DNA from: Verrucomicrobiota bacterium
GTDB lineage: Bacteria; Verrucomicrobiota; Verrucomicrobiia; Limisphaerales; UBA9464
Assembly (NCBI GenBank): GCA_025360495.1
Contig: JANYCC010000257.1
Location: forward strand, 1-49,151
Length of the DNA stretch: 49,151 nucleotides
Direction of reading: 5' to 3'
Shown here in pieces: positions 8,492 through 46,879 of this stretch. How positions within the stretch are numbered: position 1 is the first letter of the stretch; each line of letters opens with the position of its first letter. Under the pieces are notes generated by a model. The model made no database searches. It was not told where the DNA came from and saw only the letters and a list, made by a program, of their open reading frames with translations. The position numbers and the translations under genes are program-made.

Positions 8492-8519
8492 GGATGAAGG
8501 CTGGAGGATGAAGGTTGAA
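8492..8519. repeat. Two copies of a 14-bp direct repeat
   Basis: GGATGAAGGCTGGA at 8492-8505 is followed at once by GGATGAAGGTTGAA at 8506-8519, with 12 of 14 bases identical. It sits in the 109-bp spacer between the glycosidase lipoprotein start and the end of the membrane protein gene. No function is apparent. Confidence 0.55.
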
Positions 8520-8542
8520 GGTCGATTCGGAGGTTGGGATTC

Positions 8543-35140: not shown

Positions 35141-35218
35141 AAGTATTCGTTTCAATCTCCCTCTCTTCCGGAGGCACGAGGACGAGACACGAGGAGGAGG
35201 ACCGCATGGTTGGCTGAC

Positions 35219-41818: not shown

Positions 41819-42238
41819 ATGAAACGCTTCCTTGCCCTCGCCGCCTTGCTCTCCGTTTGCGCCCTCAACGGTCTGGCCGATGACCTGGCCAGATTGGAAG
41901 GCAAATGGACCGTGAAAAAAACGGGACCTGACGGCACGTCCTACACCCAGGTGATCGAGATCAAGAAGGACAAGTTCAAATTCCGGATCCTCAAGGGGAC
42001 TGACGACCTCACGCTTTATGCAGAGGGCACCGTGAAGACGGAGACCTCGGGCCCGTTCAATGTGATCAAATTCACCGATATCCGGGCCGGTGGCACCGAG
42101 TCCGACCTCCAGTCGGTCAGTGACGACCGGGCCTCGGTTTATATGTTGGGTGAGGACACGTGGACCGTGGCTTCCAACCTGGACAAGGAACGCGACCAGA
42201 AGCCCAGTCTCGACGTTTACGCCAAGAGCAAGAAGTGA
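41819..42238 (+). CDS. Small secreted TIGR03067-like (lipocalin-like) protein
   Basis: 139 residues from ATG 41819, with signal peptide MKRFLALAALLSVCALNGLA. The mature part DDLARLEGKWTVKKTGPDG, followed by IEIKKDKFKFRILKG and strands ending in DTWTVASNLDKE, has the L-x-G-x-W start and beta-barrel pattern of TIGR03067-type proteins of Planctomycetota and Verrucomicrobiota. The function of the family is unknown. It precedes the DUF1592 gene by 64 bp on the same strand and diverges from the PQQ-like gene. Confidence 0.75.
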   Translation: MKRFLALAALLSVCALNGLADDLARLEGKWTVKKTGPDGTSYTQVIEIKKDKFKFRILKGTDDLTLYAEGTVKTETSGPFNVIKFTDIRAGGTESDLQSVSDDRASVYMLGEDTWTVASNLDKERDQKPSLDVYAKSKK

Positions 42239-42302
42239 TCGTCCGGACGGACAATTCGGAGGGACAGTTCAGTGGAAGGCGTTTGGATCGGACACTGCCC
42301 CC

Positions 42303-44933
42303 ATGTTGAAAAGCACCGCCATGCCGCTGTTCGCCGTCCTGCTCGCCGCCCTGGCGGGCCCGTCGGCGGGCGCGGCTACTCCCGCCAAGGTTCAGGCCTT
42401 CGTGGAGCAGCACTGCATCGAGTGCCACGATTCCGAAATGAAGAAGGGCGGATTGGATCTCTCGGCACTGAGATTCGACCTGCAATCCCCGACGGAGTTC
42501 GCGACGTGGGTGAAGGTCCATGACCGGGTGGAGGAAGGGGAGATGCCGCCCAGGAAGAAGGCCCGGCCCGGCGCGGTCGACCTCAAGGGATTCACTGCGA
42601 CCCTGTCCGGCGCCCTGACGGAGGCCGACCTCAAGGCGGTGGCGAAGGAAGGCCGCGCCCCGCAACGGCGGTTGAACCGGTACGAATACGAAAACGCCCT
42701 GCGGGACCTGCTGCACGCACCCTGGTTGCAGGTGCGGGACTCGTTGCCGGAAGACGGCCTGTCCCATCGCTTCAACAAGCTCGGCGACGCACTCGACATG
42801 TCTTATGTGCAGATGGCGCGTTACCTGTCCGCGGCAGACCACGCCTTGCGCGAGGTGATGGCGACCCACGCGGAGCGGCCCGCGTCGCCCACGGTCCGTT
42901 ATTATACCCGTGATCAGCGCAGCTATACCGGGCCGATGACTTATACGGTGTTCAACAATGCACCCGAGCGGGCCACGTTCCCGGTGATGGGTTCGGCGGG
43001 TCAGCCCGATGTCCGTTCCGGCAAAGCCCCGATATCGGTCGGCGCAACCAACGCGGAATTGCGCGGACTCGAGGGCGTCGGGGTCGTCGCGGGCAGCTAT
43101 GAACCGATCGAGCCCAAGTTCAACAAGTTCAAGGCCCCGGTCGCCGGCCATTACCGGCTCCGTTTCAAAGGCCAGTCCGTCTGGGTCGGTCCCGGCCCGA
43201 CCAACAAATGGTTCATCCCGGACCTGGACAACATCTCGGTCGGCCGGCGTTCGGAGCCGATCACGGTCTATTCCGAGACCCCGCCCCACCTGCTGCGCAA
43301 GCTCGGATGCTTTGACGTGACGCCTGATCCGACCGTGAAGGAATTGGAGGTGTGGTTGCTGGCGGGCGAGACCATCCGGCCCGATCCGGCAAGGCTGTTC
43401 CGCTCCCGGCCGGGTCCGGGCCGCTGGCAGAATCCGCTCGCCGAAAAGGAGGGTCAACCCGGCGTGGTGTTCCGTTGGCTCGAGGTCGAGGGACCGCTTT
43501 ATGACGAGTGGCCGACGGCCGGACACCGGTTGCTCTTCGGCGATCTGGAGTTGGTGAACCGTCCGACGCCAGCGGTGCCTATGGACACCAACCGGGCCCG
43601 GGCCGATCGCCGGTTCACGCCCGCTCCCGGCGTGGAGGTGATCTCGAAGCAACCAATGGTTGATGCCGAACGCCTTCTTCGGAACTTCGTCCGGGAGGCC
43701 TATCGACGCCCGGGCGCCGAGAAGGAATACCGCCGGTTCCTGCCGGTCGTGGAAGGGGCGTTGAAATCCGGCAGCGGTTTTGCCGATGCCATGATCGCCG
43801 GCTACACGGCGGTGCTGTGCTCGCCGGGTTTTGTCCGTTTGGAGGAGAATCCCGGGCGGCTCGACGATCCGGCATTGGCGGTCCGGCTCGCGTTTTTCCT
43901 GTGGAATGCCCCGCCCGACGCGGAACTCCGGGCCGTGGCGCGCCGCGGGGAATTGCATCGTCCGGACGTGTTGCGTGCGCAGACCGACCGGCTGCTGAAG
44001 GATCCGAGGTCGCGCCAGTTTGTGGACGCCTTTCTCGATTACTGGATCGACCTCCGCAAGATCGAGGGCACCGCGCCGGACGCGACCTTATACCCGGATT
44101 ATTATCTCGATGACCTGCTGACGGAATCGGCCCAGGAGGAGACGCAGCTTTTCTTCGCCGAACTGCTGCGGGCTGATCTGCCCGCGCGCAACCTGGTGGC
44201 CTCCGATTTCGCGATGCTCAATGAACGGCTCGCGCGTCATTACGGGCTGCCGCCGTTCGAGGGCGCGGCCCTGCGGCGGGTGGCGTTGCCCGGGGGCAGT
44301 CCGCGGGGCGGTCTGATGACCCAGGCCAGTGTGCTCAAGGTGACCGCCAATGGCACCACGACCTCGCCAGTCCTGCGGGGTGCGTGGATCATGGAGCGTC
44401 TCCTGGGCCGGCCCCCGCCCCCGCCGCCCGCGAGCGTGCCGGCCGTCGAGCCAGACATCCGTGGGGCCGTCACCCTCCGGCAGCAGCTCGAAAAACATCG
44501 CACCCAGGAATCCTGCAACGCCTGCCATGCCAAGATGGACCCGGCGGGTTTCGCCTTGGAGAACTTCGATGTCATGGGTGGCTGGCGCGAGCGCTACCGG
44601 GCGGAGGGGGACGGGGTGCCGGACCCTGGGATTGGCAAGGGCGGACAGAAGTTCACCTTCCACTCCGCGCTGCCCGTGGATGCGACCGGTGAACTGGCCG
44701 ACGGACGCAAGTTCAAGGACATCCGCGATTTCAAGCGGCTCCTGCTGGACGACGAGAAACAGATCGCACGCAACCTGGCCCGGCAACTTGCGGTCTATGG
44801 CACCGGTGCGCCCATCCGTTTCAGCGACCGTGTGGACATCGAGCGGGTGCTTGAGCGCGCCGCTGCGAGCGGGTATGGTGTGGCCAGCCTGGTCCGGGAA
44901 TTGGTGCAAAGTGAATTGTTCCGGGAGAAGTGA
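42303..44933 (+). CDS. DUF1592 domain protein with cytochrome-c-like motif
   Basis: 876 residues from ATG 42303 (ATG 42321 is an alternative); signal peptide MPLFAVLLAALAGPSAGA. A CIECH heme motif lies at 38-42 in a PSCyt1-like cytochrome domain. The order then follows the standard family: DUF1587 (RRLNRYEYENALRDLL), a long beta-rich insert, DUF1595 (LLRNFVREAYRRPGAE), DUF1592 (LAVRLAFFLWNAPPDAEL), DUF1588 (ASVLKVTANGTTTSPVLRG, with a second CNACH) and DUF1585 (FSDRVDIERVLERA). These genes normally stand directly before a DUF1552 gene. Here the pair is separated by the four-helix-bundle unit at 44934-45532. The two CxxCH motifs suggest a periplasmic redox role; the substrate is unknown. Confidence 0.92.
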   Translation: MLKSTAMPLFAVLLAALAGPSAGAATPAKVQAFVEQHCIECHDSEMKKGGLDLSALRFDLQSPTEFATWVKVHDRVEEGEMPPRKKARPGAVDLKGFTATLSGALTEADLKAVAKEGRAPQRRLNRYEYENALRDLLHAPWLQVRDSLPEDGLSHRFNKLGDALDMSYVQMARYLSAADHALREVMATHAERPASPTVRYYTRDQRSYTGPMTYTVFNNAPERATFPVMGSAGQPDVRSGKAPISVGATNAELRGLEGVGVVAGSYEPIEPKFNKFKAPVAGHYRLRFKGQSVWVGPGPTNKWFIPDLDNISVGRRSEPITVYSETPPHLLRKLGCFDVTPDPTVKELEVWLLAGETIRPDPARLFRSRPGPGRWQNPLAEKEGQPGVVFRWLEVEGPLYDEWPTAGHRLLFGDLELVNRPTPAVPMDTNRARADRRFTPAPGVEVISKQPMVDAERLLRNFVREAYRRPGAEKEYRRFLPVVEGALKSGSGFADAMIAGYTAVLCSPGFVRLEENPGRLDDPALAVRLAFFLWNAPPDAELRAVARRGELHRPDVLRAQTDRLLKDPRSRQFVDAFLDYWIDLRKIEGTAPDATLYPDYYLDDLLTESAQEETQLFFAELLRADLPARNLVASDFAMLNERLARHYGLPPFEGAALRRVALPGGSPRGGLMTQASVLKVTANGTTTSPVLRGAWIMERLLGRPPPPPPASVPAVEPDIRGAVTLRQQLEKHRTQESCNACHAKMDPAGFALENFDVMGGWRERYRAEGDGVPDPGIGKGGQKFTFHSALPVDATGELADGRKFKDIRDFKRLLLDDEKQIARNLARQLAVYGTGAPIRFSDRVDIERVLERAAASGYGVASLVRELVQSELFREK

Positions 44934-45004
44934 GTGATCGGTGATCAGTATTCGGTGATCAGTATTCGGTGGTCAGTGGTCAGTGGTCAGTGGTCAGTGG
45001 TCGG
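44934..45004. repeat. Left repeat block: GTGATCAGT-type and GGTCAGT units
   Basis: Directly after the DUF1592 stop, GGTGATCAGTATTC occurs twice in tandem (14-bp period), preceded by GTGATC. Then a 7-bp unit GGTCAGT is repeated four times, ending in GGTCGG. The same words occur in inverted orientation at 45491-45532, on the other side of the four-helix-bundle gene. Confidence 0.85.
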
Positions 45005-45028
45005 AAATGCGGCAACGATTTGTTCGAT

Positions 45029-45502
45029 ATGCCAACAAAGCTTGGATACGTAAAGCATTTCAAGGATTTGGAAGTGTACCGTCGGCAGCGGGAGCTCTCC
45101 AAGGATGTGTTCCTGCTGACAAAAAAATTCCCGCGGGAGGAGCAGTATTCGCTGACGGATCAGGTGCGACGGCCATCCCGTTCCATTGGCGCACAGATTG
45201 CCGAGTCTTGGTCGAAGAGGTTATACCCGCGACATTTCATCAGCAAGCTCACCGATGCTGATGGCGAACAGATGGAAACCCAGCATTGGCTGATGGAGGC
45301 TGCCGATTGCGGTTACCTCATGGAGCCGGACGTCAGACGACTTCTCGGTTTCTGCGAAGAGATCGGACGCATGCTGGGGTCCATGATCGCCAAAGCTGAA
45401 GCGTTCACATCGAATGGCCTTCCTTTGCACGAAGACCCTCCTCCCTATCTGGCCGATGAATTGCCCAACCCTGATGTCTTTCCTGATTATACTGATAACT
45501 GA
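45029..45502 (+). CDS. Four-helix-bundle protein (23S rRNA intervening-sequence / S23 type)
   Basis: 157 residues from ATG 45029 (MPTKLGYVKHFKDLEVYRRQ). FKDLEVYRRQRELSKDVFLL, then FPREEQYSLTDQVRRPSRSI and AQIAESWSKR, are the signature of the four-helix-bundle family first known from intervening sequences in 23S rRNA genes (TIGR02436), related to diversity-element Avd proteins. It lacks a signal peptide. Its last residues DYTDN are encoded by the right repeat block, so gene and repeats form one unit. The unit lies exactly between a DUF1592 and a DUF1552 gene. The role of stand-alone members is unknown. Confidence 0.88.
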   Translation: MPTKLGYVKHFKDLEVYRRQRELSKDVFLLTKKFPREEQYSLTDQVRRPSRSIGAQIAESWSKRLYPRHFISKLTDADGEQMETQHWLMEAADCGYLMEPDVRRLLGFCEEIGRMLGSMIAKAEAFTSNGLPLHEDPPPYLADELPNPDVFPDYTDN

Positions 45503-45532
45503 TACCTGATCACTGATCACTGATTACTGATG
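45491..45532. repeat. Right repeat block: inverted ACTGATCAC-type units
   Basis: ACTGATAACTGATACCTGAT is followed by CACTGATCACTGATTACTGA. Its complement reads TCAGTAATCAGTGATCAGTG, matching the left block. The block overlaps the four-helix-bundle stop codon and reaches the first in-frame ATG (45530) of the DUF1552 gene. Confidence 0.85.
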
Positions 45533-45544
45533 CCCCTCCTTCCC

Positions 45545-46879
45545 ATGCGCATACCCTATTTCGCCACGCAACGCTCACTCTCGCGACGCCGCTTCCTGAT
45601 GGGCACTGGCATCGCCCTGTCGCTCCCGTTGCTCGAGGCGATGACTCCCGCGTTCGCCGCCGCGACTCCGGCCGCGGCCGCGGCCATCGGGACGCCCGGC
45701 GGGAAACCGCGCCGGATGTTTGCGATCTGCAACAACCTCGGCCTGCTGCCCGAGCAGTTCTTTCCCAAGAAGGAGGGGAGGGATTATGCCCTGTCACCCT
45801 ACCTGGAAACGCTCAAGGAATCGCGCGATGACTTCACCGTCTTCAGCGGTGTGTCGCATCCGGACGTGGACGGCGGGCATCCGGCCGACAACTGTTTCCT
45901 CACGGCCGCGCCCCATCCCGGAAGCGGCGGGTTCCGGAACACCCTCTCGCTGGATCAGTACATCGCCGAACGCATCGGGCATCTCACCCGGTTCCCGTCG
46001 CTCAACCTTGGGGTCAACGTGGATCGCGGCCAGCGCAGCCTGTCCTGGACGGCTTCCGGCGTGCTGATCCCCTGCGAGGAAAAGGCGTCCGACGTTTTCC
46101 GCCGTCTCTTCCTGCAGGGCACGCCGGCCGAGACGGAGAACCAGGTGCGGAAGTTGGAACTGGGCCGGAGCATTCTCGACGCGGTGGCGGGCCAGGTGAA
46201 TGACCTGAAACGCACCGTCGGGTCGCACGATCGCGATCGTCTGGACCAGTATTTCACCAGTGTCCGCGAACTCGAGCAACGGATGCAGATGTCACGGGAA
46301 TGGGAGCGCAAACCCAAGCCGGTCGTCTCCGCCGGCATCCCCCTCGATCCCGCCAGCCCGCGCGAATACATGGAGAAGGTCCGGTTGATGTATGACCTCG
46401 CGCGGTTGGCTTTCGAGACTGATTCCACCCGGTCCATCGCCCTGTTGCTGGACAGCGTGAACTCACCGGTGATCGAACTGGGTGAGACCAAGTTGTCCGA
46501 TGCCTATCATAATCTGTCCCACCACGGGAAATCCGAGGCCAAGCTCGCGCAATTGAAAGCCATCGACGAATGGCACATGAGGTTGTTGGCAGGGCTGTTC
46601 ACCGGATTGCGAGCGGTGCGGGAGCAGGGCGAGACGTTGCTGGACAGGACCATGATCCTTTATGGTTCGAACCTGGGGAACGCCAACACCCACGTCACCA
46701 CCAACCTGCCGACCCTGTTTGCCGGCGGCGGATTCAAACACGGCCAGCACCTCGCATTCGATCGCGAACGCAATTATCCGTTGCCGAACCTGTTCGTCTC
46801 GATGCTCCGGAGAATGGGGCTTGAGACGGATAAGTTCGCGTCCTCGACGGGCCCGATGCGCGGGCTGGAGATGGTGTGA
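45545..46879 (+). CDS. DUF1552 domain protein with Tat signal
   Basis: 444 residues from ATG 45545 (MRIPYFATQ). An ATG at 45530 lies at the edge of the repeat block and would add five residues. The N-terminus [20 protein letters not shown] is a twin-arginine signal, so the protein is exported folded. The rest fits DUF1552: [55 protein letters not shown] and [26 protein letters not shown], in an alkaline-phosphatase-superfamily-like fold. It normally follows a DUF1592 gene directly and is thought to act with it. Substrate unknown. Confidence 0.93.

Follow-up and report, generated by a model that had tools for sequence, protein, structure and literature searches.

The unit lying between the DUF1592 and DUF1552 genes of the window (the whole 49,151-nucleotide stretch of DNA analysed here) is best read, with a probability of roughly 0.55, as a compact, slowly spreading selfish or semi-domesticated element, the product of which would recognise its own heptad repeats and rely on host enzymes. 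It belongs to a class of 0.4–0.75 kb blocks in which a single four-helix-bundle (4HB) gene of the IVP/S23/Avd type is enclosed by inverted arrays of 7-nt (sometimes 8-nt) repeats with a lineage-specific word. Such elements often sit between genes of one operon.

All features of the unit and its neighbours are on the forward strand. The upstream host gene, a cytochrome-type DUF1592/1588/1585/1587/1595 gene, occupies 42090–44933 (its 5′ end is that of the open frame and its true start is probably later) and terminates in a TGA at 44931–44933, at which the left arm (44933–45003; about ten heptads, including GTGATCA, GTATTCG and GTGGTCA) begins directly. The 4HB gene (45029–45502) encodes 157 amino acids from its likely start at ATG 45029, the listed reading frame having begun at GTG 44969 within the left array, and its final codons and stop, ACT GAT AAC TGA (45491–45502), fall inside the right arm (45490–45531; about six ACTGATN heptads in the opposite orientation to those of the left arm). 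That array stops at the first ATG (45530) in the frame of the downstream DUF1552 (HXXSHH) gene. The likelier start of this gene is ATG 45545, since the alignments of most homologues begin no earlier than about residue 6–9, and the gene is accordingly placed at 45545–46879. The initial annotation had described repeats running from the DUF1592 stop, inverted copies running from the end of the 4HB gene to the DUF1552 start and a right block containing the last codons of the gene; this description holds, except that the right block reaches the first ATG of the downstream frame and not its likelier start.

Tandem Repeats Finder assigns period 7 to 44933–45002 and 45491–45531, and the two arms, in inverted orientation, are 74–76% complementary. 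The word GTGATCAGT occurs three times in the whole window, always at the unit (0.25 expected from shuffles), and the heptad pattern ACTGAYNACTGAYNACTGAY gives 11 matches with up to two mismatches, all inside 44930–45531 (shuffle expectation 0). Two further arrays are present in the window: a solo period-7 array at 8492–8529 (GGATGAAGG...), the word of which recurs on another contig as an inverted pair without a gene (L406, 965–1118), and a short array of GAGACACGAGGAC at 35171–35199, similar to the arms around L003, a different 4HB gene of the source genome.

The window protein scores 98.7 bits against PF05635 (curated cut-off 33.8) and 93.8 bits against TIGR02436 (cut-off 24), and its AlphaFold model consists of four long helices with a mean pLDDT of 87. 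Among solved structures it most resembles 2GSC (XCC0516; TM 0.92–0.95 by target length), 2RLD and the phage Avd protein 4DWL (TM 0.87–0.88 by target length). It falls below the cut-off of the DivGenRetAVD equivalog (30 bits versus 80) and under that of PF22296 bAvd (34 bits, cut-off 40). By analogy with Avd and with the five-chain entries 2GSC and 2RLD, the protein is probably oligomeric. No catalytic domain and no nuclease were found. The dN/dS ratio of the 4HB protein is 0.07 in Mesorhizobium and 0.20 in Xanthomonas; the protein is therefore maintained under purifying selection.

The window site was compared across 19 related DUF1552 regions, 18 of which have a DUF1592 homologue upstream. 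In most of the 18 the gap measures a few tens of bases and contains no 4HB gene, so that the alignment proposed in the initial annotation does recover empty sites. A genome from another family of the order (G052) has a 4HB gene at this site, with 67% identity across the query and 77% across the domain, flanked by eroded arms of inverted TCAGT. Two genomes with the DUF1552 proteins most similar to that of the window (G028 and G026, about 90%) have inverted ATCAGTA/TACTGAT arms at the site and the gene is absent. The window site therefore exists in occupied, gene-less and empty states.

Six places in the source genome match PF05635. Apart from the window gene, four clear members adjoin arrays of short period and different sequence, most of them arranged as inverted pairs (AATGACG/AATGTCT and words of the GATTGAT, TCGTGTC and AGATCGG types). 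The sixth, L006, is a divergent, longer copy that may stand outside the class; like its counterparts in relatives (L104 and L105) it has a weak PF05635-like score and no clear heptad arms, and genes of this type are perhaps host-domesticated members.

The association between the 4HB gene and inverted heptads extends across phyla. Among 59 PF05635 loci from the family and phylum of the window genome, 39 have a tandem period of 7 near the gene, compared with seven for far flanks, and the left and right flanks form an inverted match at 54% of loci, compared with 1.2% for arms taken from different loci. In a second survey of 79 loci from many phyla the corresponding values are 63% versus 10% for period 7, 15% versus 1.5% for period 8 and 57% versus 0.6% for own and swapped arms; 7 and, weakly, 8 are the only periods enriched. 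Inverted arms accompany 60% of 80 4HB genes and 3.2% of 285 other genes from the same loci (p = 2 × 10−29), the many-phyla scan having used one conserved peptide motif and its best 80 loci, so that canonical members were sampled. No matched arms were detectable at about 30–40% of 4HB loci. With a crude ORF caller, 47 of the 83 loci for which both neighbours could be called are co-directional on both sides, and at operon sites the left arm typically begins no more than a few bases from the stop codon of the upstream gene.

The repeats do not form one family; each 4HB lineage has its own heptad, GGCAGTA being that of a Mesorhizobium type, and a scan with GTGATCAGT alone therefore misses the general pattern. 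Different 4HB genes of one genome have different heptads, usually matching on both sides of the gene. Heptads are shared at non-homologous sites by 23% of protein pairs that are at least 60% identical, compared with 2–3% of distant pairs and 0% in an antisense control; over all pairs the rank correlation between protein identity and heptad similarity is weak (rho 0.06), the signal being confined to identities above about 60%. Nine of ten relatives 58–77% identical to the window protein (L058, L090, L091, L095 and L414–L418) have TGATCAG or a closely similar heptad. Most of them occupy other sites, although L058 shares the site of the window and some others may be orthologous pairs between two genomes (G014 and G034); the tenth (L431, 58% identical) has another heptad. 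At orthologous sites the heptad can differ while the two arms remain complementary. Gene-less derivatives at sites filled in relatives (L316, L325 and L331 in Mesorhizobium; L332–L335 in Xanthomonas) have heptads (AGTAGTG, GAATGGT, GGGACCC) that differ from those of the full elements of the same sites.

Arrays without a gene are abundant and follow the protein family. The initial annotation had asked whether every copy of the repeat flanks a 4HB gene; in a census of sampled contigs of the source genome, the window heptad was found at about 38 places, as single arrays or inverted pairs, almost all of them without such a gene. Widespread repeats without the gene had been named there as evidence against a cassette, and they are better explained as copies that lack the gene, since the heptads present in a genome follow its resident protein family. 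A scan of 50 genomes from the family for arrays of the window heptad yields 1060 matches in the 31 that have PF05635 and two in the 19 that lack it (Spearman 0.77, uncorrected for phylogeny), yet four genomes (G017, G019, G026 and G028) have many such arrays and no recognised member of the window subfamily. A 656 kb portion of the source genome contains 14 period-7 arrays, compared with 0–2 for periods 4, 5, 8, 10 and 11, nine for period 9 and five for each of periods 6 and 12. Seven of these 14 arrays fit the arms of resident 4HB genes better than foreign arms, and one more comes close to doing so, again without correction for phylogeny.

Operon sites that hold such elements include accB|accC in Xanthomonas, nuoC|nuoD in Bosea and, in Mesorhizobium, a gap between the genes for an acyl-CoA dehydrogenase and a 3-hydroxyisobutyrate dehydrogenase (gene names here being read from the sequence and not from a database assignment). 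The Mesorhizobium site comprises 62 rows, of which 27 are full (two from one genome), 28 are empty and seven are neither; six of the latter hold heptad arrays that lack the gene or are remnants, and one (L330, G221:C16) is an unrelated palindromic insert without heptads. Well supported branches of the flank tree force at least 11 changes between empty and not-empty states. For the precise insertion suggested in the initial annotation, with its proposed test for target-site duplication, the best-resolved site offers no support: the Mesorhizobium element replaces a few host bases, including the stop codon, and no target-site duplication is visible at its junctions. Relatives at the window site are too diverged to tell. 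Some sister pairs (such as L253/L322) are 98–100% identical beside the insert. In others (L252/L312 and L270/L341) the downstream tract is diverged, as is expected if some transfers used homologous recombination, and part of the same-site polymorphism in Mesorhizobium can reflect loss or homologous replacement. At accB|accC, 31 of 35 Xanthomonas species have the 4HB gene, flanked by the GGGAATC word, and the other four have gene-less inverted arrays of another heptad. A gene-less internal deletion derivative is also found (L329), and plasmid copies of 4HB genes exist, mostly in cyanobacteria. Within single genomes, no two sites were found to hold near-identical copies (maximum 69% identity); no recent transposition is therefore seen and movement, if any, is rare. 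One Mesorhizobium copy (L250, G218:C22) has an internal TAG and is apparently decaying.

From these patterns we infer that the product binds the heptads and that the element moves actively. The 4HB protein, probably as an oligomer, would bind its own heptads in DNA and thereby promote their copying, inversion, lengthening and occasional appearance at new places, with host replication, recombination or repair doing the work. The gene-less arrays would be its non-autonomous offspring, and ordinary homologous recombination in the flanking genes may serve for same-site horizontal spread between related genomes. The mobile cassette proposed initially is partly supported. An insert of about 0.6 kb that has a gene of the IVP/Avd type and lacks a transposase stands, as does the recurrence of gene plus heptad at unrelated sites, whereas movement is inferred from these distributions.

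A rather unlikely alternative is that the unit acts at the RNA level, as a relative of the 23S rRNA IVS that stands on its own. By analogy, the arms would pair in the operon mRNA and RNase III would cut the stem and free the 4HB message, the protein binding the hairpin and regulating itself or the operon, such that the symmetry in DNA would serve an RNA stem. The gene family and layout are those of the Coxiella IVS, a 428-nt element in which terminal inverted repeats enclose an S23p ORF and which RNase III cleaves in vitro (PMC4990558). Co-directional gene pairs flank many units, and the window unit as RNA folds better than shuffled sequences with its arms paired (z = −4.1), as would any inverted repeat. 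However, mismatches between arms are not biased towards G–U on the transcript strand (98 G–U versus 132 A–C, p = 0.03 in the opposite direction; a weak test, uncorrected for base composition), which gives a weak argument that arm symmetry matters in DNA rather than in mRNA, and the many solo, unpaired arrays are left unexplained. The location within 23S rRNA itself was rejected: the window unit lies between protein-coding genes, and none of 16 related 4HB loci checked with Rfam contains rRNA.

It is also unlikely that the 4HB gene is a host gene that acts in DNA binding or regulation, its product binding heptads that had grown by slippage and been recruited as genome-wide binding sites, with no selfish mobility and with presence and absence arising from gene loss and recombination. 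Purifying selection, the lack of recent duplicates, the presence at accB|accC in 31 of 35 Xanthomonas species and the replacement tracts in Mesorhizobium are all compatible with such a gene, but it accords poorly with the patchy presence at orthologous sites, the many dissimilar 4HB copies in a genome, which all differ in heptad and in site, and the occurrence of gene and heptad together at unrelated sites. A retro-mechanism, in which an Avd-like protein would partner a reverse transcriptase in trans and the heptad arrays would be copied by way of RNA, is very improbable: the Avd fold and the near-threshold bAvd score would suit it and the window genome has two RVT_1 matches, both on other contigs, but RVT_1 is absent from three element-bearing genomes, namely X. 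vasicola (one PF05635 copy) and the 97–98% complete drafts G075 (18 copies) and G104 (13 copies). An origin by chance, or as intergenic DNA of a generally repeat-rich kind beside a small gene, has a negligible probability even though heptad arrays are common in the source genome, being refuted by the control genes of the same loci, the far stretches and the arm swapping described above.

The selfish-element reading places the window unit beside several known systems. Of known structures, the IVS of 23S rRNA come closest; they have long been suspected of being mobile and are sporadically distributed (PMC4990558). Like the 23S rRNA IVS with an IVP/S23p ORF in Coxiella and Leptospira, the window unit has a protein of this family, a size of about 0.4–0.6 kb, one ORF enclosed by terminal inverted repeats and a sporadic distribution, but it lies between protein-coding genes, its arms are heptad arrays with gene-less relatives throughout the genome and maintenance of an RNA stem is unsupported by the wobble test. 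REPIN–RAYT systems likewise combine a gene flanked by inverted repeats with many intergenic gene-less inverted pairs and single repeats elsewhere; here, however, the only gene is a four-helix bundle in place of a RAYT (Y1) transposase, and the repeat is a tandem heptad whereas REP is palindromic. PF05635 has been noted as Avd-like (PMC10053308), and the fold (4DWL) is shared with Avd of diversity-generating retroelements and with bAvd, but the window protein lies under the equivalog cut-off and the distribution of the class implies that it needs no reverse transcriptase. The short unit, its inverted ends and internal deletion derivatives such as L329 recall MITEs and insertion sequences, which differ in that the window unit has no transposase gene and its ends are tandem arrays of variable length that differ by lineage.

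Heptamer arrays have been described independently in two reports. One concerns TAACTGA in Beggiatoaceae, cyanobacteria and Bacteroidetes, and its author raised the speculation that the mobile element might be a protein that binds the repeats (PMC4679880); the other concerns GGGAATC and GGGGAYT in Xanthomonas and Nostoc (PMC4692102). The published arrays resemble the arms described here, being 7-nt, intergenic, often immediately before start codons and, in Xanthomonas, present as inverted pairs (PMC4679880, PMC4692102), and the window word ACTGATA is nearly identical to TAACTGA (PMC4679880). They are treated there as repeats of unknown origin and, by the terms searched, carry no link to a 4HB gene (PMC4679880, PMC4692102). 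A search of the open-licence PMC literature, which excludes preprints, likewise found no published link between four-helix-bundle genes and heptamers, and the connection between protein lineage and heptad array appears to be new within the searchable literature. More tentatively, these units may represent a bacteria-wide mobile class whose sole product, a 4HB protein without known catalytic residues, recognises the heptad of its lineage and drives the spread of this word as inverted arrays, and which could be a common source of the heptamers in Xanthomonas, cyanobacteria, Bacteroidetes and Beggiatoaceae. The role of the very common IVP/S23 4HB proteins and the origin of over-represented 7-nt repeats in many genomes would then be joined into one problem, with the possibility that an element can maintain and spread itself although it has no recognisable nuclease, and the view of a family often annotated as ribosomal, though none of the 16 Rfam-checked copies lies in rRNA, would be corrected.

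Some loci depart from the single-gene layout. Nearby pairs of 4HB genes are found at L145, L157, L162, L166, L172, L187, L207 and L209, on the same strand in all but one, and perhaps occupy gaps of one operon. A fused two-domain 4HB gene (L226, G131:C74) has flanking repeats that appear direct rather than inverted.
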